Assembly: GCA_017626145.1 (NCBI GenBank)
Contig: JAGAJK010000086.1
Location: 1-57,429, forward strand
Source of the DNA: Clostridia bacterium
Lineage (GTDB): Bacteria > Bacillota > Clostridia > RGIG6154
Direction: 5' to 3'
DNA length: 57,429 nt
Shown piece after piece: positions 32,517 to 49,355 of the stretch. A program made the position numbers and the translations under genes. How positions within the stretch are numbered: the stretch's first letter is position 1; every line of letters begins with the position of its first letter. The notes beneath the pieces are model-generated. The model was not told where the DNA came from. It saw nothing but the letters and a program-made list of their open reading frames with translations, and did no database searches.

Positions 32517-33317
32517 TTATCCTGTTTTATATTTTTTTCTGAATTCAGTAGGCGTCATATTAACATTTTTCCGAAAAGTCTGGGTAAAATTACTGTTATC
32601 CGTAAAACCACATCTTTCCACAATTTCTCCTACTGTGTGATTTGTTTTTGTAAGAAAATACTTTGCCGAAGCAATACGACATGCATTAAGATATTTAAAC
32701 ACTGAAAAGCCTGTTATCATTTTAAACTGATGAGAAAGAGTGGATTTGCTAACATGGTACTCCCTGGCAAGACTGTCGAGGGTATACTGTTTTCTGCACT
32801 CGGTTTCAAACCTTCGCTGTATTTCGAATATCATATTAAATTTGTTATCATCAACATATACGTGTTCTATGTTGCATTTACGGTAAAGCATAATCATAAG
32901 TAAACTTATCAGTGACTGCTGCATTTCCGGTGACATTACATTGTCATTCTCCAGTTCATCAACTATTCTTGAAAATACAAATCTGAAATCATCGGCACAG
33001 TCAGATACATCAAATATATTGCCGCTTCCCGATGGACGATTTAAAAAAAGAGAATAGGCTTTTATTGTATTTACATCCGAAAAAGGACTGATTCTCATAA
33101 CATAGCGTTCATACTCATCGGTTAAAACACTCACAGAGTGATTTTCATACCTGCTGAATATAACAACCTGTCCTGCGTGAGCAATTGTTTTTGCTTGATT
33201 TACACATATTTCAATACTGCCTTTTAATAAAAATATTATTTCGTGACAATCATGATAATGAAAATTTCGATTCATTTCCCCACTTGAATAATATGCCGAA
33301 TGGATTATTGACTGCAT
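32517..33317 (-). CDS. AraC-family regulator divergent from catabolic operon
   Basis: About 266 residues from ATG 33317 (GAGGTGAAACA site). The N-terminal cupin sensor has HYHDCHEIIFLLKGSIEI and the C-terminal AraC DNA-binding domain has YTLDSLAREYHVSKSTLSHQF and TVGEIVERCGFTDNSNFTQTF. It is divergent from the eight-gene operon at 33468, and its own -35 overlaps a direct repeat shared by both promoters, which suggests autoregulation plus activation. The ligand is probably a sugar or product of the pathway. Confidence 0.9.
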   Translation of the reverse strand: MQSIIHSAYYSSGEMNRNFHYHDCHEIIFLLKGSIEICVNQAKTIAHAGQVVIFSRYENHSVSVLTDEYERYVMRISPFSDVNTIKAYSLFLNRPSGSGNIFDVSDCADDFRFVFSRIVDELENDNVMSPEMQQSLISLLMIMLYRKCNIEHVYVDDNKFNMIFEIQRRFETECRKQYTLDSLAREYHVSKSTLSHQFKMITGFSVFKYLNACRIASAKYFLTKTNHTVGEIVERCGFTDNSNFTQTFRKNVNMTPTEFRKKYKTG

Positions 33318-33338
33318 TTGTTTCACCTCTGTTTTTAT

Positions 33339-33467: not shown

Positions 33468-34781
33468 ATGAACAGAAAAGTATATTTAACTATTGACGAT
33501 TTCAAAAAACAAAATAAGGAATTGGGAACAAATCTTCCATTTTCGGAAAACACAGATGTTCTCAAGAAGAGCTTAAGTATAGGTTCAAAAACTGCCCAAA
33601 ACCGACTTGCGTGTCAGGCTATGGAGGGATGCGACGGAACCTTTGACGGAAAACCCGATGAGCTTACTAAAAGACGTTATGAACGTTTTTCAAAAGGCGG
33701 AGCTTCAGTTATATGGTTTGAAGCAACTGCTGTTATGGAAGAAGGCAGAGCCAATCCAAGACAATTATTTATTAATGAAAATAATATTGATGCTTTTAAA
33801 AAGCAGGTCGAAGATATAAAAGAAACTGCATTGAAGACAAACGGTTTTGAACCAGTTGTTATTATGCAGGCAACTCATTCGGGAAGATACAGTAAACCTC
33901 AAGGTAAGCCCGCTCCGTTAATTGCATACAACAACCCGATTTTTGAAAAGAACTCCCCTGTTTCTCCAGACAGAATTGTAACCGATAAATACCTTGACAA
34001 GGTTAAAGAAGCTTTAATTTCAGGTTCACTTCTTGCACAAAAAGCAGGATTTGACGGTGTTGACATTAAATGCTGTCACCGTTACCTCAACTCTGAACTG
34101 CTTTCTGCATACAACAGAGATGGGCGTTATGGTGGAAGTCTTGAAAATAGAACAAGACTTTTGAGAGAAAGTGTTAAAGGTGCAATTGAGGTTAGTAACA
34201 AAGACTTTTTGGTTTCTTCAAGACTTAACGTATATGACGGCTTTGTTTATCCTTATGGTTTCGGTGTTTCTCCCGATAAAGGAACAGATATGGACTTAAC
34301 AGAAGCTAAATGGCTTATTAACGAGCTTTATAAATACGGTGTACGTGTATTAAATATCACTATGGGTAATCCATATTTTAATCCACATGTCAACAGACCC
34401 TTTGCTCTTGGCGGCTACGTTGCCGATGAGCATCCTTTAGAGGGCGTTAAAAGAGTTTTAGATGGTACTGCTGAAATTAAAGATGCAGTACCTGATATGA
34501 AATTAATTTGCTCTGCTGTATCATATCTTGGAGTTGCAGCCCCCAATGTCGTTGCCTCTTATATAGAGAATAACAAATTTGATATTGCAGGCTTTGGAAG
34601 AACAGTATTTGCATATCCCGATTTTGCAAATGACATTATAAACACCGGTAAAATGAATAAAGACAAATGCTGTATCTGTTGCTCAAAATGCACCGAAATT
34701 ATGCGCTCCGGCTCAACTCCGGGATGTGTTATAAGAGACAAAGAAATTTATGGTGAGCTTTATAAAAAAATATTCAGTTAA
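33468..34781 (+). CDS. Old yellow enzyme with [4Fe-4S] motif (NADH:flavin oxidoreductase)
   Basis: 437 residues. The OYE TIM barrel shows MQATHSGRYSKPQG, AGFDGVDIKCCHRYLNSELLSAYNRDGRYGGSLENR (read in parts) and IAGFGRTVFAYPDFAN. The C-terminal CICCSKC...C motif (C-x2-C-x2-C-x11-C) matches the cluster site of trimethylamine dehydrogenase/2,4-dienoyl-CoA reductase-type members. The second FAD/NAD domain of those enzymes is absent, so electrons must come from a partner. The likely chemistry is reduction of an activated C=C bond. It is the first gene of the operon. ATG 33468 has a CAGGAG site. Confidence 0.88.
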   Translation: MNRKVYLTIDDFKKQNKELGTNLPFSENTDVLKKSLSIGSKTAQNRLACQAMEGCDGTFDGKPDELTKRRYERFSKGGASVIWFEATAVMEEGRANPRQLFINENNIDAFKKQVEDIKETALKTNGFEPVVIMQATHSGRYSKPQGKPAPLIAYNNPIFEKNSPVSPDRIVTDKYLDKVKEALISGSLLAQKAGFDGVDIKCCHRYLNSELLSAYNRDGRYGGSLENRTRLLRESVKGAIEVSNKDFLVSSRLNVYDGFVYPYGFGVSPDKGTDMDLTEAKWLINELYKYGVRVLNITMGNPYFNPHVNRPFALGGYVADEHPLEGVKRVLDGTAEIKDAVPDMKLICSAVSYLGVAAPNVVASYIENNKFDIAGFGRTVFAYPDFANDIINTGKMNKDKCCICCSKCTEIMRSGSTPGCVIRDKEIYGELYKKIFS

Positions 34782-34793
34782 GGAGCATTTACT

Positions 34794-36578
34794 ATGTTTT
34801 TAAAATGGATGAAAGAAAACAATTTCAGAGATGTTAATTTCGATACACCTTTAATGCCAAAAGCTTGTGACAGGGATTTCTGGGATAAACGTAATAACGC
34901 ACAGTTAATTGAACGTGCCGAAAAGTATATTGATTTCTCATGGCCTTCAATTCCTGTTTCAACATTTATCGCTTTTCAAAGAGAAGGAAACAGAATGAAA
35001 CACGAAATTCCGTATTTTGAAAGACGAAAGGCTTTAACTTCTCTGGTCATTGGTGAAATTTTAGAACATAAAGGAAGATTTATACCTCAAATCGTCAACG
35101 GAATTTATGTAATATGCGAAGAAACTTACTGGGGATTATCTGCACACATAAAATTCTGTGACCAAACACCGCTTATACCTTCACCGGAATTTCCCAATAT
35201 TGATTTATTTGCCGCAGAAACTGCAGCTACACTTGCTCTTACTTATCATCTTCTTTACGAAGAAATTAAAGACTACTGCTCACCTATTTTAGAAAGAATA
35301 GAATATGAATTAAATAATAAAACAATTAAACCATATCTTAATCTTAAAAAATTTTTCTGGATGGGATACCACGGAAGATCAGTTAATAACTGGAATCCCT
35401 GGATTATTTCAAATCTGCTTACTGTATTCCTTATAATTAAAAAGGAAGAAGACTTTTATGCAGGTCTTGAAAAAATGTTTACAGAGATTAATAACTATTA
35501 TGTATCTGCTCTTGATGACGGTGGCTGCGATGAAGGAGCATCTTATTGGGTAAAAGCCGGCGGTATGTTATTCAATTTCTGTGATAATCTTTACATAGCA
35601 ACCAACGGAAGAATAAACTTTTTCAACGATGAAAAAATCAAAAGAATTTCAGAATATATTCCAAACACTTATATTGGGAACGGTTACATAACAAATTTTG
35701 CAGACGGTTCAGTAAAAGTAACGAGAGGAATAGAAAGTCTTATTTACAGATTTGGAAAGAGAACATCCAACAAAAGACTATGTGCATTTGCAGGGTTAAT
35801 TAAACAGAATGAAACAATTGAATCATCGGATTTATATACGATGCTTTGTGATGTTATATATAAAAACGAAATCTCTGACACAGAGAAATACAATCCTCTC
35901 GATGAATATATTTATCCAAAGTTGCAGGTGTCATTTGCTAATACCGATAATTGGTTTTATGCTGCAAAAGGTGGTCATAACAGTGAATCACATAATCACA
36001 ACGATATAGGAAGTTTTATTGTATATTACAACAACTCCCCTGTTTTAATTGACCCGGGCTGCGGAACTTATACAAAGCAGACCTTTTCTGAAGAAAGATA
36101 CAAAATATGGACTATGCAGTCAGGCTGGCATAATCTTCCTGTTGTGAATAAATTGGAACAGTACAACGGTGAAGAATACAGAGCCACATCTTTCACACTT
36201 AAGAACAAAACAACAAATATAAGTTTTGCTGATGCTTACCCGAAAGAAGCAAAAATACTGAACTTAAACAGAAGCATTATCCAGAAAAACACCGGGATTG
36301 AAATCACCGATAAGTTTGAATTTGAAAATCTTAACAATACTGTTGAAGAGCATTTTATAACCGCACTTACCACCTTTGTAAAAGAAAACAGAGTTTACAT
36401 CGGTGACGAATATATTCTTGAAACAAATAAAGATGCTGAAATCGTTTTAGACAACGTAGATTTTGACGGAGATAAAAAGCTTATCAAGATGTGGGGTTCT
36501 GAAAAATTAAACAGAATTTCGTTTAACTTTAAAACAGAAAAAGAATCAGAAATTACATTTACATTAAGGAGATTATAA
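34794..36578 (+). CDS. Cytosolic heparinase II/III-like polysaccharide lyase
   Basis: 594 residues with no signal peptide. An alpha/alpha-toroid N-terminal region includes GYHGRSVNNWNPWIISN and DDGGCDEGASYWVKAGG. The C-terminal heparinase II/III-like beta-sandwich has GGHNSESHNHNDIGSF followed by VLIDPGCGTYT, the usual metal/active-site block. Family members cleave uronate-containing glycans by beta-elimination (PL12/PL15/PL17/PL21 types) or act on oligosaccharides. The cytosolic location suggests an oligosaccharide substrate. ATG 34794 follows AAGGAG. Confidence 0.85.
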   Translation: MFLKWMKENNFRDVNFDTPLMPKACDRDFWDKRNNAQLIERAEKYIDFSWPSIPVSTFIAFQREGNRMKHEIPYFERRKALTSLVIGEILEHKGRFIPQIVNGIYVICEETYWGLSAHIKFCDQTPLIPSPEFPNIDLFAAETAATLALTYHLLYEEIKDYCSPILERIEYELNNKTIKPYLNLKKFFWMGYHGRSVNNWNPWIISNLLTVFLIIKKEEDFYAGLEKMFTEINNYYVSALDDGGCDEGASYWVKAGGMLFNFCDNLYIATNGRINFFNDEKIKRISEYIPNTYIGNGYITNFADGSVKVTRGIESLIYRFGKRTSNKRLCAFAGLIKQNETIESSDLYTMLCDVIYKNEISDTEKYNPLDEYIYPKLQVSFANTDNWFYAAKGGHNSESHNHNDIGSFIVYYNNSPVLIDPGCGTYTKQTFSEERYKIWTMQSGWHNLPVVNKLEQYNGEEYRATSFTLKNKTTNISFADAYPKEAKILNLNRSIIQKNTGIEITDKFEFENLNNTVEEHFITALTTFVKENRVYIGDEYILETNKDAEIVLDNVDFDGDKKLIKMWGSEKLNRISFNFKTEKESEITFTLRRL

Positions 36579-36579
36579 G

Positions 36580-37311
36580 ATGACAAAAGTAGCATTGGTT
36601 ACGGGTGTTGCAGGCGGCATTGGCTTTGCAACGGCACAGAAATTAATAAATGAAGGTATGGCGGTAGTCGGAATGGATGTTTTAGATACCATACCCAAAG
36701 TATTGAACGGTGAATTTACATACGTTAAAGGAGATTTAGCAGACTCACAAAGCCGTATGAATTTTGTTAATACAGCCATTGAAAAATACGGACGAATTGA
36801 CGCACTTATAAATGTTGCAGGAGTTGCTCCGAAGGTGCGTAACGATATCCTGGATATGACAGAAGACAGCTATGACTTTGTTATGAACATAAACACAAAA
36901 GGAACATTATTTTTAACACAGCTTGTTGCAAACAAAATGATTGAATTAAAATGTGGAACAGCAATCGTTAATATTTCATCAATGTCAGGATATACAAGTT
37001 CAACAAGCCGTGGTGAATACTGCATTTCAAAAGCAGGCGTTACGATGATAACAAAATTATTTGCAGACAGGCTTGCAGAATACGGCATAACGGTAAATGA
37101 AATAAGACCGGGTATTATTGCAACGGGTATGACAGATAAGGTGAAGGAAAAATATGATAATTTAATTGAAAACGGACTTCTTCCTATTAAAAGGTGGGGA
37201 CAACCTGAAGATATAGCAAAAGCAGTATGGTCCCTTGCCTGCGGTGAATTATCATACGTTACGGGTCAGTCACTTGATGTTGACGGCGGATTCCACATAA
37301 GGAGATTGTAA
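36580..37311 (+). CDS. Short-chain dehydrogenase/reductase
   Basis: 243 residues of classical SDR fold: TGVAGGIGFATAQ is the cofactor glycine motif, NVAGVAPK corresponds to NAG, and the catalytic Ser-Tyr-Lys is in NISSMSG and YCISKAG. The C-terminal GQSLDVDGGFHI is typical. Related enzymes oxidise sugar acids or 2-keto-3-deoxy sugar acids, for example fuconate or rhamnonate derivatives, but the substrate cannot be read from the sequence. It starts one base after the lyase stop and overlaps the next gene by one base. Confidence 0.9.
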   Translation: MTKVALVTGVAGGIGFATAQKLINEGMAVVGMDVLDTIPKVLNGEFTYVKGDLADSQSRMNFVNTAIEKYGRIDALINVAGVAPKVRNDILDMTEDSYDFVMNINTKGTLFLTQLVANKMIELKCGTAIVNISSMSGYTSSTSRGEYCISKAGVTMITKLFADRLAEYGITVNEIRPGIIATGMTDKVKEKYDNLIENGLLPIKRWGQPEDIAKAVWSLACGELSYVTGQSLDVDGGFHIRRL

Positions 37312-39215
37312 TGAAAACTTATACATATGACGTTATTGTAGTAGGAACAGGTGCCGCAGGATACAATGCTGCGTGCCGTATTAAAGAATTCGGCAAAAAA
37401 AGCATAGCAATTGTAACAGAAGGTATTAACACAGGAACTTCAAGAAACACAGGCAGCGATAAACAGACTTACTACAAATTAGGTCTTGGCGGCGACAGTC
37501 CTGACAGTGTTTACAATATGGCGGAAAATTTATTTGCAGGTGGAAGTGTTGACGGTGATAATGCACTTTGTGAAGCTGCATTATCCGTTCGTTCTTTTAT
37601 GCATTTATGCGAACTTGGTGTTGAATTTCCCGTAAACAGATATGGTGAGTATGTAGGTTATAAAACAGACCACGACCCATATGCAAGAGCTACAAGTGCC
37701 GGACCTCTTACCTCAAAATTTATGACAGAAGCTTTAGAGAAAAAGGCGCAAAGGCTTAATATTGAAATATATTCCGAGTTACTTGCTATTGAAGTCTTAA
37801 AATATGACGACAGGGTTTGCGGACTTTTGTGCCTTGAACAGTTAAGCGGTGAATTAATTGCATTTAAATGCGCAGACATAATACTTGCAACCGGCGGACC
37901 TGCAGGAATTTATGCCGATAGCGTATATCCAACCTGTCACACAGGCACAACAAGTCTTGCTCTTTGTGCAGGTAGCAAAGCACAGAATCTTACAGAATGG
38001 CAATACGGTCTTGCATCTGTTAATCCAAGATGGAACGTTTCAGGTACATATATGCAGGTACTTCCCCGTTTCGTTTCAATAGACAAAGACGGTAAAGAAT
38101 ATGAATTTCTCGACGATTATTTTAAAGATAAATACGAAGCTCTTTCTGCAGTATTTTTAAAAGGTTATCAATGGCCATTTGACAGTAAAAAAGTACTCGA
38201 GGGGTCTTCAATTATTGATATACTTGTTTACCGTGAATGTGTGTTAAAAAACAGAAGGGTTTACCTTGATTTTACAAAGAATCCTTTTTGTATGGAAACT
38301 ATTGATTTTAAAAAGCTTTCGGATGAAGCGTTCGAATATTTAAATAAAGCTGAAGCTTGTTTCGGAACACCGATAGAAAGACTTTTGAAAATGAACACGC
38401 CTGCAGTTGAGCTTTACAAATCAAAAGGTGTTGACATAACAGAAGAATATCTCGAAATAGCACTTTGCGCACAGCATAATAATGGAGGAATTGCCGTTGA
38501 TATGTGGTGGCAGACATCGGTTAAAGGTCTTTTTGCCGTGGGTGAATGTGCCGGAACACACGGTGTGACAAGACCGGGTGGAAGTGCACTTAACGCAGGT
38601 CAGGTAGGCTCACTTCGTGCTTCTCAATATGTTTCTGAAAATGGCAATGCACAAATAAACGATAATGAGTTTAACTCTATAGTTGAAAAAGTTGAAAAAG
38701 CTTATAACGATACATTTGATATTTTATGCAAAAAAGAGTATAATGCAGATAAGCTTATTGAAAAAGCACAAAGAAGAATGAGTAATTTTGCTTCCGCTAT
38801 AAGAAACAAAGAAAAAATGGTTGGTGCCTTATCTGAAACCGTAAATGATTTAGAAAATCTGCTTTTAGTTGCAGGTGTGGGAAATAAAAGCAAATTATAT
38901 ATTTACTTTAAACTTAAAGATATTCTTATAACTCAGATTGCTTGTTTAAATGCTATGATAGATTATGCGGATACAGCAGGTGATACAAGAGGATCTTCAC
39001 TTTATTTTGACAAACGAGGTAGTTTAAGAGACGGTTTAGAAGAAATGTTCAGATTCTGTGAAGAAAATCTTAATAACAGAACAAAAGTTCAGGAAGTTCA
39101 GTTAATTGACGGTAGGTTCAAAACATCGTGGCGAGATGTCCGTCCCATTCCCGACAATGATGATTTCTTTGAAAACATCTGGAGAAGCTACAGAGAAAAT
39201 AAAAATATTTATTAA
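37311..39215 (+). CDS. Fumarate-reductase/aspartate-oxidase-type flavoprotein
   Basis: 634 residues. The FAD-binding motif VIVVGTGAAGYNAACRI is at the N-terminus, with IILATGGPAGIYADSV in the middle and GLFAVGECAGTHGVTRPGGSALNAGQVG as the family C-terminal flavin block. A helical C-terminal domain (about residues 450-634) resembles the succinate dehydrogenase/fumarate reductase and AprA type. No Fe-S partner subunit or membrane anchor gene is adjacent, so the redox partner is unclear. It may reduce or dehydrogenate a pathway acid. The start overlaps the SDR stop (TAATG). Confidence 0.88.
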   Translation: MKTYTYDVIVVGTGAAGYNAACRIKEFGKKSIAIVTEGINTGTSRNTGSDKQTYYKLGLGGDSPDSVYNMAENLFAGGSVDGDNALCEAALSVRSFMHLCELGVEFPVNRYGEYVGYKTDHDPYARATSAGPLTSKFMTEALEKKAQRLNIEIYSELLAIEVLKYDDRVCGLLCLEQLSGELIAFKCADIILATGGPAGIYADSVYPTCHTGTTSLALCAGSKAQNLTEWQYGLASVNPRWNVSGTYMQVLPRFVSIDKDGKEYEFLDDYFKDKYEALSAVFLKGYQWPFDSKKVLEGSSIIDILVYRECVLKNRRVYLDFTKNPFCMETIDFKKLSDEAFEYLNKAEACFGTPIERLLKMNTPAVELYKSKGVDITEEYLEIALCAQHNNGGIAVDMWWQTSVKGLFAVGECAGTHGVTRPGGSALNAGQVGSLRASQYVSENGNAQINDNEFNSIVEKVEKAYNDTFDILCKKEYNADKLIEKAQRRMSNFASAIRNKEKMVGALSETVNDLENLLLVAGVGNKSKLYIYFKLKDILITQIACLNAMIDYADTAGDTRGSSLYFDKRGSLRDGLEEMFRFCEENLNNRTKVQEVQLIDGRFKTSWRDVRPIPDNDDFFENIWRSYRENKNIY

Positions 39216-39225
39216 GGTGATATAA

Positions 39226-39972
39226 ATGAAAACTTATAAACAAGGTCTTGTTTCCATTTCTTTTAGAGATAAAACGCCTTTGGAAATCCTGATTGCTATG
39301 AAAAAATGTAACCTCAATTATATTGAATGGGGCAGCGATGTTCACGCTCCATGTAATGACAAAGAAAATCTTGAAAATATAAAAAAGCTTCAGGACGAAT
39401 TTAACATAATATGTTCTTCCTACGGCACTTACTTTCGTTTGGGAGTTAACGATACAAAAGAACTTCCCGACTACATAAATGCGGCAAAAAATTTAGGAAC
39501 AGATATTTTAAGGCTGTGGTGTGGAAATAAAGGCTCTGAAGAATATACAAACGACGAGAAAAACATTTTATTCGAGGAATGTAAAAAAGCATCAAGGATA
39601 GCTGAAAAGCATAATGTCAAGCTATGTATGGAATGCCACAACAATACGTATACGGACACAAAAGAGGGAGCGTTCGAACTTATGGAATATGTAAATTCTC
39701 CTGCATTTCGTATGTACTGGCAACCAAATCAGTTTAAAACATTTGATGAAAATATATCTTATGCAAAACTTCTCTCCCTTTATACAGAACATATACACGT
39801 GTTTAACTGGGATGGGAAAAATAAATATCCACTTAATAATGCAATTGATACATGGAAAACATATCTTTCATGTTTCGGTGAAGATAAAACTCTTCTTCTC
39901 GAATTTATGCCCGACGATAAAATCGAAAGCTTAAAAACAGAAGCAGACTCATTATTTAAAATTACAGAATAG
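39226..39972 (+). CDS. Sugar phosphate isomerase/epimerase-family TIM barrel (pathway copy)
   Basis: 248 residues, shorter than the copy at 18830. Metal-site-like residues are in YIEWGSDVHAPC, KLCMECHNN, YWQPNQF, HIHVFNW and LLLEFMPDD. Members include inosose dehydratases, hydroxypyruvate isomerases and, in recently described bacterial systems, partner subunits or lyases acting on 3-keto glycosides. It lies 11 bases before a Gfo/Idh oxidoreductase gene, a pairing seen in 3-keto-sugar and C-deglycosylation systems. That functional reading is inference. Confidence 0.83.
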   Translation: MKTYKQGLVSISFRDKTPLEILIAMKKCNLNYIEWGSDVHAPCNDKENLENIKKLQDEFNIICSSYGTYFRLGVNDTKELPDYINAAKNLGTDILRLWCGNKGSEEYTNDEKNILFEECKKASRIAEKHNVKLCMECHNNTYTDTKEGAFELMEYVNSPAFRMYWQPNQFKTFDENISYAKLLSLYTEHIHVFNWDGKNKYPLNNAIDTWKTYLSCFGEDKTLLLEFMPDDKIESLKTEADSLFKITE

Positions 39973-39983
39973 GGTTTTAGAAT

Positions 39984-40913
39984 ATGAAAATATGTTTTAT
40001 AGGAAGCTGTGGCCACACATATCGGACATTCGAGGAAATGAAGCTTTGTAATGAGGCTGAATTTGTCGGAATTGCACCGGGCAGTGAACACGAAAATACA
40101 GAAGATTTTAAAAAATATAATATCAAGGTATATAACAGCTATATTAAAATGCTTGAAATTGAAGCTCCGGATATTGCAGTTATCTCACCTGTTTTTGGAT
40201 ATACAGGAAAAATTATCAAAGAATGTGCGAAACGAAAAATTGATATTTTCTCTGAAAAACTGATAGCTTCAAATCCAAAAGAACTAAATGAAGTTAAAGA
40301 CTGCATAACTGCAAATAATATTCATTTTTCGGCAATGCATTTTCTACGGTTTACACCATCATTTTATCAAGCAAAAAAAGCTATTGAAAATGGCACCATT
40401 GGCGAAATCAAGCTTATTACAGCTCAAAAAAGCTACAAATACGGCAAAAGACCTGAATGGTATAACGATAGAAATTTATATCCGGGAACCATTCCCTGGG
40501 TTGGTATTCACGCAATTGACTGGATTTATTTCTTCACCAAAAAAGATTTCAAAAGTGTTACCGCATTGGATTTCGGAAATCCTGCCAAATACGCACTTTG
40601 TCAATTTGAACTTGAAGATGAAATAATAGCATCGGTTAACATTGACTTTTTAAGGCATATAAATGCCCCCTCTCACGGTGATGACCGTATAAGAATTGCA
40701 GGCACAGACGGAGTAATAGAGGTTTTTGAAGACAAATATGTTTTAATAAATAAAGACGGTATAAAAGAATGTTTTCAAGGGGAGTCACCAAAGCTTGCAC
40801 TTGATTTTCTTTACAATAAGGAAGAATTAACCAAAGAAGAAATTTTTATGCTGACAGAAATTGCTTTAAAAACACAGCTTTCAGCAGACAGAAAAGAAAG
40901 AATCTATTTATAA
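39984..40913 (+). CDS. Gfo/Idh/MocA-family oxidoreductase
   Basis: 309 residues, somewhat shorter than the usual 330-390. The N-terminal Rossmann domain has FIGSCGHTYR and DIFSEKLIAS, corresponding to the EKP motif with Leu replacing Pro. The C-terminal alpha/beta domain shows TIPWVGIHAIDWIYFF with the conserved His. NAD(P)-dependent oxidation or reduction of a sugar, probably at a ring carbon, is expected. It is coupled with the neighbouring isomerase-like gene, which supports a keto-sugar step. Confidence 0.87.
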   Translation: MKICFIGSCGHTYRTFEEMKLCNEAEFVGIAPGSEHENTEDFKKYNIKVYNSYIKMLEIEAPDIAVISPVFGYTGKIIKECAKRKIDIFSEKLIASNPKELNEVKDCITANNIHFSAMHFLRFTPSFYQAKKAIENGTIGEIKLITAQKSYKYGKRPEWYNDRNLYPGTIPWVGIHAIDWIYFFTKKDFKSVTALDFGNPAKYALCQFELEDEIIASVNIDFLRHINAPSHGDDRIRIAGTDGVIEVFEDKYVLINKDGIKECFQGESPKLALDFLYNKEELTKEEIFMLTEIALKTQLSADRKERIYL

Positions 40914-40923
40914 GGAGTAACTT

Positions 40924-41925
40924 ATGAAATCAATATTTATATGCAATAATGAGCCTGTTTTCCATACGGTTTATACATCTGAAATGATTGATACTTTAAA
41001 GGAAGAAGCAAATATCGACAGCAAGATTTACTCTTACAATGATATCATAACATCAAATGGAAAATTTAATGATACAGAATATTTATTTTCCACCTGGGGA
41101 ATGCCTGCATTTACAGAAGATGAGATAAAAAAACACTTCCCTTCTCTTAAATGCGTATTCTACGGAGCGGGAACCGTTCAGCAATTTGCAAGACCGTTTT
41201 TAAACTGCGGTGTTAAAGTGTTCAGCGCCTGGGCAGCAAATGCCGTTCCCGTTGCAGAATATACCGTAGCACAGATAATTCTTGCAAATAAAAGCTTTTT
41301 TGTTTCTTCAAGACTTTTTAAATCTGAAGGTCATAGAAATGCAAAAGTTAAATTCAAGGAGTTTCCCGGAAATTACTGCAACAAAATCGGTTTAATCGGT
41401 GCAGGAATGATAGGAAAGCTTGTAATTAAGCTTCTTAAAAATTATAAATTTGACGTTCTCGTTTTCGATCCGTTCCTACCCGATGAAACAGCTTTTGAGC
41501 TTGGTGTAACAAAAACAACTCTTAATGAAATATTTTCAAAATGCAGTGTTATTTCAAACCATCTTGCAAATAACGAGCAAACACAGGGAATGCTTAATTA
41601 CAGCCACTTTTCAAAGGTTGGTAAAAATGCCACCTTTATAAACACCGGAAGAGGTGCACAGGTTGTTGAAAAGGATTTAATAAGAGCATTAAAAGAAAGA
41701 CCTGATTTTACTGCTATTTTAGACGTTACAATGCCTGAGCCACCTGAATATGGCTGTGAATTTTATTCTCTTGACAACTGTATTTTAACACCTCATATAG
41801 CAGGCTCAAGCGGTGATGAATGTCACAGACTTGCAGAGTATATGTTAGAAGAATTTCGTCTTTATACAAAAAGCAAACCTACTAATTACGAGGTTACTAT
41901 GAAAATGCTTGAAACAATGGCATAA
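40924..41925 (+). CDS. D-2-hydroxyacid dehydrogenase-family protein
   Basis: 333 residues. The NAD-binding motif is IGLIGAGMIGKLV (about residues 157-169). The catalytic triad is Arg in INTGRGAQV, Glu in DVTMPEPPEYG and His in LTPHIAGSSG. It resembles phosphoglycerate/glyoxylate-reductase-type members. In the pathway it could interconvert a 2-keto and a 2-hydroxy acid. ATG 40924 follows AAGGAG. The propeller lyase gene follows after 16 bases. Confidence 0.9.
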   Translation: MKSIFICNNEPVFHTVYTSEMIDTLKEEANIDSKIYSYNDIITSNGKFNDTEYLFSTWGMPAFTEDEIKKHFPSLKCVFYGAGTVQQFARPFLNCGVKVFSAWAANAVPVAEYTVAQIILANKSFFVSSRLFKSEGHRNAKVKFKEFPGNYCNKIGLIGAGMIGKLVIKLLKNYKFDVLVFDPFLPDETAFELGVTKTTLNEIFSKCSVISNHLANNEQTQGMLNYSHFSKVGKNATFINTGRGAQVVEKDLIRALKERPDFTAILDVTMPEPPEYGCEFYSLDNCILTPHIAGSSGDECHRLAEYMLEEFRLYTKSKPTNYEVTMKMLETMA

Positions 41926-41941
41926 ACAGGAGATAAAAATT

Positions 41942-43240
41942 ATGATTAATATATCAAAATCAAAGGAAATAAGAATTAAACGAGGTAACACAGACTGGTG
42001 GATAAATGAAAAATCCATGGTGGGTATAAACGGAAAAACATATATTACATATGTAACTGATATGGGTGAAATTCACGTAAAGGAACTGGATGCAAAGTGT
42101 TCAAAAAGCATTAGTCGAGATGTTTGCCTGTGCCGTATAAACTGTGATTTTTCCGATGAACATAATGCACCGTCAATATGCGTAATGGATAGTGGGAAAA
42201 TTATTATAGCTTATACGGGACATAATGTTAAAGGTGTACGCTACAAAGTTACCAAAAATCCTTTTGATATTATGTCCTTCGGTCCGGAACAGATTTTAGA
42301 ATATGATGGGACTGTTACATATGCACAGCTTTCAGAAAACACTTACAAAAACGAATTGTGGTTATTTACACGCGTTAACAGTGTTACCTGGGAATTTCGC
42401 TATTCCTCCGATGAGGGAATCACCTGGAGCAAGCCGCATACATTTTTAAAATCCGATGCAGGTGGTTTGTTTTATCTTGATGTAAGAAAGCAATACAGAG
42501 TTCACAATCATCGTACACCTCAGGAACAATGGTTTTTCGCTCTTTACGGACATCCAAAAGTTTCAGCAGATCATACAATAAGAAGTGCTTATTTTAATAA
42601 CGACGGCCAGCTTTTGCTACCTGACGATACTCCTCTTTCGGTTAATCTTTATGACGAAAATACGTTAATGGATCTTGATACCCTTTCCGTTGTTTACGAA
42701 TCACCACAGGGAACTACTGTAAGATTATTGTCTGTATGTCCAACTATGCCTTACAGAGTAGGGCTTGCATCATTTGAACTGGATAAACCGGAAACAATTG
42801 TTTATTATTCGTCCACATTCAAAGACGGTAAGTGGGTGCTTTCACAACCTATTGCAAAGGCAGGAGCATTTTTGTCAGATGTTCAGACGGACGGTTCACA
42901 AACCTATGTACCCGGCATGAGTTATTACTACGGTGTGGGTGAAGCCGGAATACATGAAATGCACGGCGGTATTTCGGAAACAAACAGAATTTTCCTTGCC
43001 CGTAAAGGTGAAAATTCATGGCTACTTGAAAGCTATCTTTCTAAGGATTGTGGTAGCACGTATACCCGCGAACAGATTATAAAAGAAATTCCTTTATCGG
43101 AAAACAAAAAAATATGGAGACCAATTGTCCCCATTTATGCACAGGATAATCTTCCTGTTTACTGGCACGAAGGTACTTATACTGCCCATACCGGCGGATG
43201 GCACTGTGATACGGTTATGTATGTTGAATATGACGATTGA
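41942..43240 (+). CDS. BNR beta-propeller protein, probable PL24/PL25-like lyase
   Basis: About 432 residues from ATG 41942 (CAGGAGAT site), with no signal peptide. The BNR_4-type seven-bladed propeller includes FRYSSDEGITWSK as an Asp-box-like motif. His74 (DEHNAPSIC) and His94 (YTGHN) are 20 residues apart, the spacing I recall for the catalytic His pair of PL25 ulvan lyases. An Arg (WEFRYS) and a Tyr (ALYGHP) lie near the other expected positions. Ulvan and rhamnosyl-glucuronate lyases use this fold. Here the protein would be cytosolic, which is unusual. Assignment to a numbered PL family is tentative. Confidence 0.75.
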   Translation: MINISKSKEIRIKRGNTDWWINEKSMVGINGKTYITYVTDMGEIHVKELDAKCSKSISRDVCLCRINCDFSDEHNAPSICVMDSGKIIIAYTGHNVKGVRYKVTKNPFDIMSFGPEQILEYDGTVTYAQLSENTYKNELWLFTRVNSVTWEFRYSSDEGITWSKPHTFLKSDAGGLFYLDVRKQYRVHNHRTPQEQWFFALYGHPKVSADHTIRSAYFNNDGQLLLPDDTPLSVNLYDENTLMDLDTLSVVYESPQGTTVRLLSVCPTMPYRVGLASFELDKPETIVYYSSTFKDGKWVLSQPIAKAGAFLSDVQTDGSQTYVPGMSYYYGVGEAGIHEMHGGISETNRIFLARKGENSWLLESYLSKDCGSTYTREQIIKEIPLSENKKIWRPIVPIYAQDNLPVYWHEGTYTAHTGGWHCDTVMYVEYDD

Positions 43241-43276
43241 AACAACAGACGGTGTAAAGTTACACCGTCTGCTGTT
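43241..43276. terminator. Bidirectional terminator between the convergent operons
   Basis: CAGACGGTGTAA (43246-43257) pairs perfectly with TTACACCGTCTG (43260-43271) around a 2-base loop, with an A tract on one side and a T tract on the other. It overlaps the last codons of the activase gene. Confidence 0.88.
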
Positions 43277-44183
43277 TTATTATCCCGGTACACAATACTT
43301 CTTTAACACCCGATTCTTTAGCTATATCCAAGAGCTTATCTGCAATATCTGATGTAATTAAAGGAGTATCTTTCAGTTCCCAGGTTTTATTAAGTTTTTC
43401 GTATTTACTTATACAGGAATTATTAAATGCACATAATTCCCAACGTTCAACTTCATTTGCGATATTTTCCTTTATAAAATCCGAAATATCTCTGATTACA
43501 TTTTCATCTGCAGTAAACGTTGGTATAATGGGAGTTCTTATCCACAATCTTTTACCTTTTATATTTTTGACGTTTTCAAGTATTATGCCGTTATCTACGC
43601 CTGTCCACTTTTTATGTAATGCGCTATCAATAACCTTTAAATCATATAGCACAACATCGGTATATTCAAGTATTTCATTTACTACGACTTGGCTACAAAA
43701 CCCGCTTGTATCAAGAGCGGTGCTTACACCTTCTGTTTTCATAATTCTGAAAAATTCTTTTGTAAATTCGGCATGGTGTGTTGCCTCTCCTCCTGAAACA
43801 GTTACCCCACCACCTGAAATATCAAAATATTCCTTATCCTTCAGAATTTCTTTTGCTAAAGCTTCAGGTGTGAATTCTTCTGCTATTTTCGTTATAGCTT
43901 TCGCAGGACAGTATTCAACACATTCAAAACACCTCCTGCATAAAGAGTTTACGAAAACCCCATCAGAAGTCAGATTGATTGCACCGTTTTTACAGGCTTT
44001 TATACACTCACCGCAACCGATACACAGCTTTTTGTCATACCAGATACTATTGGAAAAATCAATACCTTCAGGGTTATGACACCATTTACATTCAAGGGGA
44101 CAACCCTTAAAAAAAACGGTATCTCTAGTTCCTGGTCCATCGTGAGTAGTACCTTTATAAATATCAAATATCAAAGCTTTCAT
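43260..44183 (-). CDS. Glycyl radical enzyme activating enzyme (radical SAM)
   Basis: 307 residues. The radical-SAM motif CPLECKWC (C-x3-C-x2-C) is at about residues 28-35. An inserted ferredoxin-type region carries two [4Fe-4S] sites (CIGCGECIKAC and CRRCFECVEYC), typical of activases of the non-PFL dehydratase/decarboxylase group. It abstracts hydrogen from the glycine of its partner. The partner glycyl radical enzyme is two genes upstream in the same operon, with an AraC gene between. The start ATG 44183 overlaps the AraC coding end. Confidence 0.94.
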   Translation of the reverse strand: MKALIFDIYKGTTHDGPGTRDTVFFKGCPLECKWCHNPEGIDFSNSIWYDKKLCIGCGECIKACKNGAINLTSDGVFVNSLCRRCFECVEYCPAKAITKIAEEFTPEALAKEILKDKEYFDISGGGVTVSGGEATHHAEFTKEFFRIMKTEGVSTALDTSGFCSQVVVNEILEYTDVVLYDLKVIDSALHKKWTGVDNGIILENVKNIKGKRLWIRTPIIPTFTADENVIRDISDFIKENIANEVERWELCAFNNSCISKYEKLNKTWELKDTPLITSDIADKLLDIAKESGVKEVLCTGIIKQQTV

Positions 44184-45012
44184 TATATTTTCCCTTTTTA
44201 CGCATTTCTTTGGGTGTCATTGCGTACTTTTCTAAAAAAATTTTATTAAACCAGGACAGACTGTAAAATCCTGCTTCGTTACACAGTTGGGTAATACTTT
44301 TATTACCGCTTACAAGCTGCGATGCTACAAATGCCAGTCTGATATCATTTATAAATCCGGTAACTGTTATATCAAGGTATTTTCTCATACACCTTGATAT
44401 ATATTCACGGCTCTTACCTGTTATTTCACACATTCGTTCCGTGCCGATGAAAAAATTCTCTTGCTCTTTCATTTGTTCGCACATATCGTCAAACCATTTC
44501 GGAATATCTTTTTCCAGCTTCTTTTCCTTTAAAAACTTTGTGAGCATTTCAAAAATAAGAATTCTTGTATACATCACATCATTTTTATCACCGTTACTAA
44601 TTCTCTTCATTTTACGAACCAGGCTGATTGTTTCCGCCTCCGTAAGCAAAATACAGTTATCCTTTATATTATCAACTGCGGCCTTTGATAAACACAGATA
44701 ATCTAAAAGATTTTCCATAATCTGCTTTGAAAAGCTGAGATTGATAATATCGTTATCCTTACATTTTTCGTACATAATGCCATGTATATCGCTTGGTTTT
44801 ATAAATACAAAGCTACCTCTGTCAAGTTCTTCAACTCTTCCGTTTATGTAATGAACTACAGGATTAAGAGTAAGAAAAAACTCGTAAAACTCGTGCTCGT
44901 GAAACCGGCTTTTTCTGTTTCTGCCGTTCACATACAAACAAAGATAACCTGTTGTTTCATCGATATTGCCATTTTCATATAAATGCTCTATTTCAAAATT
45001 AAAATTCTTCAT
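44164..45012 (-). CDS. AraC-family regulator inside the glycyl radical operon
   Basis: 282 residues. The N-terminal cupin-like sensor (FHEHEFYEFFLTLNPVVHYINGR) is followed by the C-terminal AraC DNA-binding domain (MCEITGKSREYISRCMRKYL and SITQLCNEAGFYSLSWFNKIF). It is encoded between the glycyl radical enzyme and its activase and overlaps the activase start by 20 bases. It probably regulates this operon or the convergent one in response to a sugar or acid. Start is ATG 45012. Confidence 0.9.
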   Translation of the reverse strand: MKNFNFEIEHLYENGNIDETTGYLCLYVNGRNRKSRFHEHEFYEFFLTLNPVVHYINGRVEELDRGSFVFIKPSDIHGIMYEKCKDNDIINLSFSKQIMENLLDYLCLSKAAVDNIKDNCILLTEAETISLVRKMKRISNGDKNDVMYTRILIFEMLTKFLKEKKLEKDIPKWFDDMCEQMKEQENFFIGTERMCEITGKSREYISRCMRKYLDITVTGFINDIRLAFVASQLVSGNKSITQLCNEAGFYSLSWFNKIFLEKYAMTPKEMRKKGKYNESFDI

Positions 45013-47269
45013 AATTGTTCCTGCTTACAAACTCCTCCTGAAAGCTTTTTGAAAGAGTTACAAATCTTGAAGTATACCCTGTTACTTTTACAATAATATT
45101 CTGATAATCAGGATTATCAGGGTGATTTATTGCATCCTTAAGCTTTTCAAGGTCCATAATGTTCAAATTAATCTGAACACCGTTTTTTCTGAAATATGCC
45201 TTGGAAAAGTCTTCAACATATTTATAAATGTCTTCTTTACCGTCAAAAAATTTTGGCTGAAGTTCAATTTGTAATGAGCCACCGAGGAATTTTTTATTAT
45301 CTACCTTGGCACAGGAATTTGCTGTTGCAAGTAACCCTTTCGTATTTCTTCCTGCTGTCGGATTACAGCCGTGAGCAAGGGGCTCGGAAGCATATCTTCC
45401 GTCAGGAGTTGCTCCTATTATTTGCGACGCTGTATGCCCCTGAAACTGGAAAAGACTTGCTCTGTACTGCTGACCACGGTTGTTGGTTGTATTATCCATA
45501 ACCTTTGCTATACTTTCTGTGATTCTTACATACATAGCATCAACATCATCGTAATCGTTTCCGTACTTATGTTCGTTCAAAAATCTTTGTCTCATTACTT
45601 CATTATTTGCCCAGTTTTTCTTTACTGCATCACGCACTGCTTCCAAAGTGTACATTTTCTTATCGTAAACAAGGTTCTTTATAGCAAAGAATGAATCGCA
45701 CACATTGGGAATTCCAAGAATATTTGTAGAGGTGAACTGATAATCAACACCACGGTGGTCGGTTATATCAAGACCTCTTTCTATAGTTGTATGACAGTTG
45801 AGAGATGTTACAATTTCAGGCCATATGTCAGCAATAACATCGTACTGTGCGTCCTTAAATACTCTTAAGGCTTCTGTTGTATTAACGATTTCTTTTTCAA
45901 AGTATTCATATAATTCTTCAAAGGATGAAATATCATCAAGGATTGCCGCATCAATAGCTCTGAACATACAATCGGTAAGAACTACGGCATTGGTATCCTG
46001 GTCACAGTATTCTTTGCCCGGAATACAGTACCACTGACAACCGCTGTAGCATACGTTTGCAGCATCCTCTTCAGTAACTCCCGAACGAAGCTCTGTTTTA
46101 TAAATAACATCATAATTCACAAGTGACGGTATACCTGCACCGTGTCTTGCCAGAACATCACAAACGTATGAATAGAATTCTTTATTCATATCCTCGTGCC
46201 ACATTACACCAAGGTTATTATAATCATCAATCATATCATAAGCTTCCATAACCACAAAGCTTACTTCGTTAGTTGCGTCGTTGCCATTTTTATCACGCCC
46301 ACCGAGACTGAAAAACTGACCTCTTAATTTTAAAAACATTTCAGCAAGATAATCACGGGCTTCACTTCTTGTAAGAGTGCCATCTTTTATATCCTTTTCA
46401 TAAAGCTTAATTAAATATTCGTCAATTTTTCCGTAGCCGTTTCCATGACCTACAATTCTGTCTGTCATTACGGCAAAATTAAGCCACTGAACGCCCTCAT
46501 AAAAGCTTGAGGGTGGATTCATACTTATATTTGCACAGGCTTTTGATATTTTCAGATATCTTTCCTTCTGCCCGCTATTAGTTTCACTCTCATATAATTC
46601 AAAAGCACGTTCACTGTATTTCTTTATATAAGAAATTATTGCTTCACAGGCGTATTTAGCTCCCTTTAAAAACGTAACTTTCTTTATATTTTCAAGTTCT
46701 TCGTATTTTTTTAAACTTTTGTTTATTCTGTCTAAAATACCTCCCCACCCTTGTGTTAAACCAATGTTATAGTCAGGACAGGTATGACCGTGGCTGTTAC
46801 CTCCGGCACCTAATTCACGTGCTTTTTTGCCAAGCATCTTTACGTGCTGACCGAAATCATAAGGCCTTACTTCGTTCATTTCCCAGTGAAATTCACCGAC
46901 TATTGTTTCATTTTCATAAATTTCAGCAGGACTGTTGTCCATTAAAAATTTAAAGTCCTTTCCCCAGCTTTCGGCATTAGCTTTATATCCTTCAAGTTTT
47001 GACGGCATTTTATCAAGATAAGGAAATGCCTTTCCGCAATCTACACGACAACCGTGATCACCAAGACTGAGACCTTCAAATTTATGCTCACCGCTTCTTG
47101 GTGCTATAGCGTTTCCTGCATCTGACCAATGATAAACAAGCTGTGTTTCGTTAGCAGTATATAAGTTTCTTTTACCGCTTATTGCAAGTTCTCTGCTTCT
47201 CTGACGTAGCTTTTCAATTCTTTCGCTGATTTCAAATTTTGACTCTGCTTTAAGTTTAATACTTTCCAT
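44999..47269 (-). CDS. Glycyl radical enzyme of unassigned class
   Basis: About 756 residues from ATG 47269 (AAGGAG site). The C-terminal radical site is VKVTGYTSRFVTL, with the glycine at about residue 731. The GHTCPDY block seen in dehydratase-type members is present (about residue 161). The active-site cysteine region reads NVCYSGCQWYC (Cys about 411): Trp replaces the Glu two residues after the Cys that marks glycerol, choline, hydroxyproline and similar lyases, and it is not the Cys-Cys of pyruvate formate-lyase. The reaction is therefore unknown. The activase is encoded downstream. Oxygen-sensitive chemistry fits a strict anaerobe. Confidence 0.92.
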   Translation of the reverse strand: MESIKLKAESKFEISERIEKLRQRSRELAISGKRNLYTANETQLVYHWSDAGNAIAPRSGEHKFEGLSLGDHGCRVDCGKAFPYLDKMPSKLEGYKANAESWGKDFKFLMDNSPAEIYENETIVGEFHWEMNEVRPYDFGQHVKMLGKKARELGAGGNSHGHTCPDYNIGLTQGWGGILDRINKSLKKYEELENIKKVTFLKGAKYACEAIISYIKKYSERAFELYESETNSGQKERYLKISKACANISMNPPSSFYEGVQWLNFAVMTDRIVGHGNGYGKIDEYLIKLYEKDIKDGTLTRSEARDYLAEMFLKLRGQFFSLGGRDKNGNDATNEVSFVVMEAYDMIDDYNNLGVMWHEDMNKEFYSYVCDVLARHGAGIPSLVNYDVIYKTELRSGVTEEDAANVCYSGCQWYCIPGKEYCDQDTNAVVLTDCMFRAIDAAILDDISSFEELYEYFEKEIVNTTEALRVFKDAQYDVIADIWPEIVTSLNCHTTIERGLDITDHRGVDYQFTSTNILGIPNVCDSFFAIKNLVYDKKMYTLEAVRDAVKKNWANNEVMRQRFLNEHKYGNDYDDVDAMYVRITESIAKVMDNTTNNRGQQYRASLFQFQGHTASQIIGATPDGRYASEPLAHGCNPTAGRNTKGLLATANSCAKVDNKKFLGGSLQIELQPKFFDGKEDIYKYVEDFSKAYFRKNGVQINLNIMDLEKLKDAINHPDNPDYQNIIVKVTGYTSRFVTLSKSFQEEFVSRNNYEEF

Positions 47270-47282
47270 AACTATTCTCTCC

Positions 47283-49355
47283 TTAGAATCTGTCAAAAAA
47301 TATCAATTCGGGGTCTATCTCACTTTTTATATAACATTCATCACAAAGCTTCTGCCACTTTTTCGTAATTGGAAGCTTATTTTTTTCTTTCATATCTTCT
47401 GCAAAATTATCCCCTACATATTCGAAAAATGAAATATACAAATCATCATACTTGAAGATTGAATAATTCCTTATATTGTACAAATGTCCGTTTTTAACTA
47501 TCTGATCCCATATTTCATTATGAAGCTTTATGTATTCTTCTTCCTTTTCAGGTTTTATTTTAGTTACAACACAATGAGGCTCGGTTTTATTTACAATGTA
47601 TTTATTTTTAATATCGTTTAATTTGCCGTTAAGCAAAACTCTGTCGTTTTCAAAATGGATTTGTGTATCTGTATATACTATACTTTTATGATTCCTTATA
47701 TCTTCCCTTTTTCTTTCCTCAAGCTTATAACAGGTTGCATATATAACATCTGCATTTATACAAGAAAAGATATCATTATCAAATTCCACAAAATCCTGCA
47801 TAACATACTCACCACGGTCGGAAAAATCAAAAATAACACTTACATTTTCCTTACTTTGGATTATATTATTCTGCCATTTTATAGAGTCTGATTCAGTAAA
47901 TTTCAATGAAATATCTTTTCCATTCATAAAAATATTGTTTTTGAAAAGTATATTTTGGGCAATATGTGTATGTATGGGCACCACTACGTCAACAGAAAGG
48001 TTTCCGTCTGCAATACAGTTATCACTTAATTCGTCAAAATAAATTGCATATGCTTTCTCAGTTTCGGGAACAGAAGTTATATAATTGCCCTCAACAACAG
48101 TTTTATCACCTCTTGAACAGTAAATTGCCGCACCGTCGCAAAGACGTGTCATACATCTTGTTATCTTATTAAATCTTATTATATGAGGACCGCCGTTACA
48201 GGTAATACCGCAATAAGGAATATTATCTATGGTATTATACTCAATTACAGTCTGTCCTTTTTCTTCTTTTTTACCATCAAGAACATAAACAAGTAATGAT
48301 TTACCGCCTGCGTGAATAGCAATAGCAGAAAAATCGAACATTCCTATATCTGAAATTTCGTTATGACTAATATTTTCATTTTCACACTCATTGGTTACTA
48401 TACCGCAAGATGCACACTTTGATATGATACAGTTCGTTATTTCAATGTTCTTTGACTTTAAGGCTTTAATTCCCTGACCACCCGAAAAAGAAACCTCAAG
48501 CATATCAAGTTTGATATGCTCCGAGTTTTCAATCTGAACTGCTCCGGAAGGATTTACGGCACGAAGTCCCGCTATAATTCCGCATTCGGAATTCGAAACA
48601 TAAACAGATAAATTCTCTACGCACACATCTGTTGAATTAATAATTCTGATTACTGAATGACTTACAGGTATAATAGCTTTTATATTACTTTCATCTTCTC
48701 CGTCTTCGGGCAAATAATAGATTTTACACTCTTTTCTGTTATAACACCATGTACCTTTTTCTTTTAATCCGTACATGGTATTTAAAAACTGATACTGATG
48801 TTTATCAAAAGCACCCGACGGGTGTGCCATGGGTGATGAAGTTGTAATAACGCCCGTAACATCATCATAATCTTTAACAGAAACAGTAGATTCGTCCCAA
48901 ACATGTATTGCACGTATATCGCAGTTTAATATATCAAGTTCCTTTGGAATATCTTCTTTATTTATCGTAATATGTGTAAGCTCATCATATTCAGGAGCTC
49001 TGTTCCAGCCGCCGTTTCTTGAATTCATCCATTTAAGCTCGGTTTTATCCAGACATTCAAAATATTCGTTGCAAGGATATGAAGAACGGGATTTTACTGC
49101 AGAATTCACAACAAAAACTCTCGGTTCAACATCAGTTTCAAAGGTAAGATATTCTCCTTCTCTTTTGAAATTGTCAGCCACAATTCCACCAATTATTTTT
49201 GCTCCGTTTTGTGACATAAGCTTAACATTTTTGCATCCGTCAATACAAATCGGTTCCGTTACGGTTATATCGTTTTCTATGTTAATTATAATATCATTTT
49301 TAAGCTGTTTTAATATGTCGTTAATCTCTTTTTGGGTTGTTACATTATAAATCAT
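47283..49355 (-). CDS. Right-handed beta-helix protein fused to L-rhamnose mutarotase domain
   Basis: 690 residues without a signal peptide. Residues 1 to about 570 are a parallel beta-helix resembling GH141-like proteins (SSYPCNEYFECLDKTELKW, then coils such as IEITNCIISKCASCGIVTN and TVVEGNYITSV). Residues about 592-690 align with the RhaM/DUF718 mutarotase: IKPEKEEEYIKLHNEIWDQI matches the RhaM active region, including the catalytic His (His612 here), and WQKLCDECY and the ELIFF end also correspond. The first gene of the glycyl radical operon. The fusion implies a rhamnose-like product released by the helix domain. Confidence 0.85.
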   Translation of the reverse strand: MIYNVTTQKEINDILKQLKNDIIINIENDITVTEPICIDGCKNVKLMSQNGAKIIGGIVADNFKREGEYLTFETDVEPRVFVVNSAVKSRSSYPCNEYFECLDKTELKWMNSRNGGWNRAPEYDELTHITINKEDIPKELDILNCDIRAIHVWDESTVSVKDYDDVTGVITTSSPMAHPSGAFDKHQYQFLNTMYGLKEKGTWCYNRKECKIYYLPEDGEDESNIKAIIPVSHSVIRIINSTDVCVENLSVYVSNSECGIIAGLRAVNPSGAVQIENSEHIKLDMLEVSFSGGQGIKALKSKNIEITNCIISKCASCGIVTNECENENISHNEISDIGMFDFSAIAIHAGGKSLLVYVLDGKKEEKGQTVIEYNTIDNIPYCGITCNGGPHIIRFNKITRCMTRLCDGAAIYCSRGDKTVVEGNYITSVPETEKAYAIYFDELSDNCIADGNLSVDVVVPIHTHIAQNILFKNNIFMNGKDISLKFTESDSIKWQNNIIQSKENVSVIFDFSDRGEYVMQDFVEFDNDIFSCINADVIYATCYKLEERKREDIRNHKSIVYTDTQIHFENDRVLLNGKLNDIKNKYIVNKTEPHCVVTKIKPEKEEEYIKLHNEIWDQIVKNGHLYNIRNYSIFKYDDLYISFFEYVGDNFAEDMKEKNKLPITKKWQKLCDECYIKSEIDPELIFFDRF

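Follow-up and report, generated by a model that had tools for sequence, protein, structure and literature searches.

A putative cytosolic propeller lyase for glucuronides encoded in a Clostridia operon

What would a β-propeller protein with a histidine pair spaced as in ulvan lyase do inside a clostridial cell? The question is raised by the last of eight genes in an operon (33468 to 43240; Table 1) of a gut Clostridia bacterium, within a stretch of 57,429 nucleotides that we refer to as the window. An initial annotation had read the product as a PL25-like lyase without a signal peptide. Our analysis supports the lyase assignment and points to a lineage other than PL25.

Table 1. Features of the propeller operon and its last gene (window positions; empty cells, no entry)
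Feature	Position	Strand	Basis
AraC-family regulator, divergent from operon	32517-33326	-	
OYE-family flavin reductase, operon gene 1	33468-34781	+	Pfam
PL33-type lyase homologue, 594 aa, no signal peptide, operon gene 2	34794-36578	+	PDB 8r75, E = 1.2e-109
Short-chain dehydrogenase (SDR)	36580-37311	+	Pfam, NCBIfam
FAD_binding_2 flavoprotein (fumarate-reductase-like)	37311-39215	+	
Xylose-isomerase-like TIM barrel	39226-39972	+	Pfam
Gfo/Idh/MocA oxidoreductase	39984-40913	+	Pfam
D-2-hydroxyacid dehydrogenase family protein	40924-41925	+	Pfam
Cytosolic β-propeller, putative glucuronide β-elimination lyase, 432 aa	41942-43240	+	ORF, Pfam, profile, model, alignment
Asp72-His74 codons (FoRham1 Asp83/His85; His74 = PLSV_3936 His123)	42155-42163	+	Invariant, 23/23
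His94 codon (FoRham1 His105; PLSV_3936 His143)	42221-42223	+	Invariant, 23/23
Tyr127 codon (FoRham1 Tyr150; PLSV_3936 Tyr188)	42320-42322	+	Profile match, alignment
Arg144 codon, carboxylate neutraliser (FoRham1 Arg166; PLSV_3936 Arg204)	42371-42373	+	Profile match, alignment
Asp box SSDEGITW, residues 155-162	42404-42427	+	Read from sequence

An ATG at 41942 opens a frame of 432 codons free of internal stops, and the start position is identical in all five orthologues; an alternative TTG start, at 41909, would lengthen the protein by 11 residues and make its frame overlap with the gene upstream. The product matches PF15892 (BNR_4) at E = 1.2e-11, with 44.9 bits against a gathering score of 27.3. 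A degenerate second Asp box (SKDCGSTY, residues 367-374) accompanies the good one, in agreement with the BNR or Asp-box-like blades described earlier. An NCBIfam search assigned no family to the protein.

The lack of a signal peptide is borne out. The maximum Kyte-Doolittle hydrophobicity over residues 1-60, in a 15-residue window, is 0.37, compared with 0.39-1.46 in the five orthologues and 2.6-3.6 in five secreted relatives. The same measure finds no hydrophobic N-terminus in the haloarchaeal relatives, and a signal-less version is not special to Clostridia.

The translation places His74 in DEHNAP (residues 72-77) and His94 in TGHN (92-95), 20 residues apart. This spacing is a pointer and not proof, since at least one such pair arises in 5949 of 20000 composition-preserving shuffles. 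Nor does it single out PL25, since all 23 BNR_4-type proteins that we aligned share it. The 23-row alignment takes in PL25-type and PL42-type sequences, which were collected from plasmids for the alignment and trees, and its only invariant columns are Asp72, His74, His94, Tyr127, Arg144 and Trp298.

In the profile match to the PL25 ulvan lyase PLSV_3936 (5UAM), His123, His143, Tyr188 and Arg204 (numbered by hand count as chain index plus 24) align with His74, His94, Tyr127 and Arg144. The suggestion of a PL25-like pair therefore holds by alignment, while the spacing by itself is no more than chance would give. Chain 5UAS carries Asn where His123 aligns, in the His74 column. An alignment with a PL42-type sequence (L051) shows that Asp72, His74, His94, Tyr127 and Arg144 match the catalytic set of the PL42 enzyme FoRham1 in identity and order. 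Neutron work on FoRham1 is reported to assign roles to Asp83, His85, His105, Tyr150 and Arg166, mutation and neutron work to mark these five as important, and the His-His-Asp motif to be common to PL24, PL25 and PL42 (PMC8377490; PMC10951650).

An arginine near 153 and a tyrosine near 202 had been put forward for comparison with the PL25 active site. As neutraliser and base they are rejected by the 23-row alignment, in which neither is invariant outside the window clade: position 153 varies, with Gln, Val, Asn, His or Met in a number of rows, and the tyrosine near 202 is confined to the window clade. The corresponding catalytic residues are Arg144 and Tyr127. The possibility that the protein belongs to a PF15892 subfamily devoid of lyase residues is not borne out; it is a PF15892 member, but the lyase residues are kept.

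A single-sequence phmmer search of the PDB gave no meaningful match, and we therefore used a profile. This profile, A1, comprises 11 sequences, six from the window clade and five from secreted clostridial proteins that are 23-30% identical. Its best PDB match is 5UAM (E = 3.8e-7), and the PL42 structure 7ESK is reached at E = 0.39 only. A profile that also included haloarchaeal rows, but no PL25, improved the match to 5UAM to E = 2.6e-13; a sialidase came next, at 0.037. An hhalign comparison with five PL25-type sequences gave 97.2% and E = 3.6e-11 over 146 columns.

An AlphaFold2 model built on A1 has a pLDDT of 83.5 and a pTM of 0.86, with a poor stretch at residues 334-344. In VIA-align the solved structure nearest to the predicted propeller is 5UAM (Z = 31.6), followed by GH145/PL42 proteins (31.0-30.1), lectins (25-26, with one value of 25.9) and the PL24-type Uly1 (21.2). 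PL25 and PL42 are tied in Z, and the fold therefore assigns the group and not the family.

Trees were used to place the protein further; they contain no PL24 sequence. The six window-clade rows group together (100/100) and, with secreted clostridial proteins, haloarchaeal BNR-4 proteins and a Persicobacter protein, form a third branch (99/97). Separate clades are formed by the PL25-type rows (100/100 and 100/99 in two trees) and by the three PL42-type rows (100/99), and the window clade lies outside both. The deep joins are unsure because L052, a PL42-type row, and L053 are long branches. L051 is the one PL42-type row that was checked against the PDB, where it matches 4IRT at E = 2.8e-280.

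The resemblance to PL25 thus has two sides. The window protein shares with PLSV_3936 the propeller fold and the Asp-His-His-Tyr-Arg set, and a GH88 gene adjoins PL25-type genes in two annotated plasmid examples, from Alteromonas and Catenovulum. It differs in being cytosolic, in coming from Clostridia, in belonging to another clade and in having only 17-19% identity to PL25-type proteins. The PL25 zinc ligands His208, His264 and Cys266 are replaced by a gap, Phe198 and Ala200, with the placement of His278 uncertain, and the substrate contacts Asn122 and Lys125 by Glu73 and Ala76. A PL25-type catalytic apparatus is present, then, but membership of PL25 does not follow.

The PL42, formerly GH145, L-rhamnose-α-1,4-D-glucuronate lyases (FoRham1, BT3686) have the same five catalytic residues, and the exo mode in which they cleave Rha-GlcA could plausibly serve as a model for an enzyme in the cytosol; the window protein nevertheless falls outside the PL42-type clade and matches 7ESK weakly. 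Its closest company is the secreted clostridial BNR_4 proteins (L009-L014) and the haloarchaeal and Persicobacter BNR-4 proteins (L047-L049, L053), which lie in the same branch and, in the aligned rows, keep the five residues. These differ in being 20-30% identical where compared and, in the aligned clostridial ones, in having hydrophobic N-termini. Our literature search found no characterised member among them. A putative PL42 gene is reported in natronoarchaea (PMC12343721), and the haloarchaeal relatives may for this reason already carry a PL42 label. The branch that contains the window clade may deserve a PL family of its own.

The operon itself holds a second lyase homologue. The product of its second gene matches PL33 lyases such as BtPL33HA over nearly the full length and, by hand count on the alignment, keeps the equivalents of N238, Y291 and H444, the catalytic residues named for PL33 in PMC11848413. 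The match and the conserved residues thus point to two lyases of different folds in one operon. The known PL33 substrates are hyaluronan, chondroitin, heparosan or gellan; the window protein differs in lacking a signal peptide. None of the operon genes was seen to encode a transporter; this and the replacement of the PL25 substrate contacts count against the reading preferred below.

Enzymes of the Glyco_hydro_88 class remove unsaturated uronic acids. A GH88 gene (PF07470) lies within 10 kb of the propeller gene in three of the six intact orthologous loci (L016, L017 and L018), adjoining it in L016 and L018 and separated from it by one trehalase-like gene in L017. A crude random-placement estimate puts the chance of this at 1.8e-4, and in genome G361 the single GH88 gene in 2.9 Mb is the neighbour of the propeller gene. 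Genes for ABC importer binding proteins or permeases are present in the same three loci, an arrangement in keeping with uptake before cleavage in the cytosol. Further afield, the Persicobacter gene (L053) adjoins GH88, and in B. plebeius a GH105 partner is reported to cleave the product of the GH145 lyase (PMC8406133). Near the propeller of loci L015 and L003 there is no GH88 gene, and the window genome has none above the cut-off, its one weak match lying in a protein that reads as GH127-like. The absence of a GH88 partner from half of the loci (three of six) counts against a two-step scheme. GH88 near orthologues and a PL33-type lyase in the operon support lyase activity and uronide breakdown as the context.

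The GH88-family proteins in question (L016:6799-8826, L017:11358-13406 and L018:6815-8869, all on the minus strand) have about 680 residues, including an N-terminal extension of some 350-420 residues without a Pfam match. On two haloarchaeal plasmids (L048, L049) BNR-4 propeller genes lie amid genes for heparinase II/III, Gfo/Idh/MocA, sugar isomerase/epimerase and sulfatase proteins, a set that closely resembles the window operon.

The propeller gene is sporadic. At E = 1e-10 or better it is matched in eight of 391 genomes of the class, five of which, the window genome included, carry window-clade copies. The order of the window genome contributes one genome in six, and the families of G361 and G176 two of 38 and two of 16, these being the same four genomes again. 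Two further copies were found on other contigs, both of caecal Clostridia (goat and roe-deer caecum). One of the two, at L004:9001-9266, is a remnant of the gene, covering residues 1-70 and 412-432 only and directly preceding a Gfo/Idh/MocA gene 47% identical to that of the window; this is either a deletion or an assembly error.

We also considered the reductive genes of the operon. The module (33468-39972, plus strand) is conserved in clostridia and often includes the TIM barrel and the 2-hydroxyacid dehydrogenase. In a survey of 20 loci around FAD homologues, from 20 genomes, 18 have the OYE, SDR and FAD homologues together and all have the SDR and FAD pair. This co-occurrence, and the presence of the FAD protein in 53 of the 391 genomes of the class against eight for the propeller, indicate that the redox set is not specific to the propeller. 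As a general partner of lyases the module is weakened as a candidate: BNR propellers lie near it in only two genomes (G306, G342), and a heparinase-like gene was found at one of the 20 loci. BLAST with GH88 queries matched none of the 20, and Pfam detected a GH88-like gene below the cut-off at one. At L066:907-5419, upstream of a redox module, RpiB-like isomerase, SDR-like, RraA-like and GH88-like genes stand together, a set that we take to resemble the streptococcal unsaturated-uronate pathway.

One genome, G306, brings together a related propeller, the redox module, a KDPG aldolase and a KDG-type kinase, a hint that the module ends in 2-keto-3-deoxygluconate. This grouping supports a joint reading, in which the propeller lyases have a third, family-level branch and the product in the window passes to 2-keto-3-deoxygluconate through the module (OYE, SDR, FAD flavoprotein, TIM barrel and 2-hydroxyacid dehydrogenase) and not through GH88. 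The far wider occurrence of the module and the failure of GH88 queries to match module loci by BLAST oppose it, and we regard the combination as rather unlikely. If true, the route would be a new cytosolic path for unsaturated uronides.

Other genes lie close to the operon. A glycyl radical enzyme (44999-47296), with an activase and an AraC regulator (43260-44183 and 44164-45012; all on the minus strand), is convergent to the operon, 20 bases from its end. Dehydratase-type glycyl radical enzymes carry Glu in the active-site stretch; here the stretch reads SGCQW, without Glu, and NCBIfam gave no equivalog above the cut-off. In L004 and L015, too, the propeller has other glycyl radical enzymes nearby. 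The gene at 47283-49355 (minus strand) encodes a β-helix protein of 690 residues with no evident signal peptide, to which an L-rhamnose-mutarotase-like domain is fused at residues 594-675 (Pfam). This protein may be linked to rhamnose release.

Taken together, the full catalytic set of ulvan and gum-arabic lyases is kept, which makes cleavage at glucuronic acid very likely; from this we infer the activity and the class of substrate. The protein is very likely a glucuronide lyase of the cytosol, similar in kind to PL24, PL25 and PL42 and in a lineage of its own. Probably it acts on imported glucuronides, with a GH88 partner in several relatives and the PL33-type lyase beside it in the window. 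In the order of steps that we envisage, the propeller protein would bind an imported oligosaccharide containing 4-O-substituted glucuronic acid, the carboxylate of which would be held and neutralised by Arg144, His94 and Tyr127. His74, positioned by Asp72, would take the C5 proton and pass it to the leaving sugar, giving the released sugar and a 4,5-unsaturated uronide. In several relatives the unsaturated uronic acid would then be split off by the co-encoded GH88-family hydrolase; in the window, the PL33-type lyase may act beside the propeller on the same or a linked substrate.

The same residues might instead serve another uronide reaction in the cytosol, for example C5 epimerisation or a dehydration at terminal glucuronic acid. 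An oligosaccharide dehydratase is reported in ulvan breakdown (PMC8511951), the PL25 substrate contacts are lost, and an enzyme in the cytosol may have mono- or disaccharides as its substrates. We nevertheless judge this quite unlikely, as the characterised PL24, PL25 and PL42 relatives with this residue set are described as lyases (PMC8377490; PMC8406133; PMC10951650). The tie in structural similarity between GH145 and PL25 would also suit a carbohydrate hydrolase that works, like BT3686 from what was GH145, through its other, posterior face. Against this stand the anterior lyase residues, invariant in all 23 rows, and the report that lyase activity is the feature conserved in GH145 (PMC8406133); a posterior-face hydrolase is very unlikely.

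If the protein were a BNR protein of sialidase or lectin type, lacking lyase chemistry, this would account for a weak BNR_2 match below the Pfam cut-off and for the sialidases and lectins in the profile and structure comparisons. Such a protein is scarcely to be expected when all five catalytic residues are kept and PL25, though left out of the profile, leads the sialidases by eleven orders of magnitude. Least probable of all is that the gene came from marine bacteria and encodes a true PL25 ulvan lyase. That PL25 is the top match in sequence and structure is outweighed by the low identity, the missing zinc ligands, the missing signal peptide and the separate clade, and the tree disfavours this reading.

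Our preferred assignment thus remains a cytosolic propeller lyase for imported glucuronides. A literature search by titles and the starts of abstracts found no description of a cytosolic clostridial propeller lyase, and a new substrate, as first proposed, would be plausible. Further substrates of GH145-type lyases are said to be still to be found (PMC8406133), and the window operon is a concrete place to look for them. If the protein is active, the propeller lyases, secreted enzymes of marine organisms, fungi and Bacteroides, would gain a clostridial branch that works in the cytosol, with five residues to mutate, and the operon would point to an unnoticed glucuronide as food for these bacteria.
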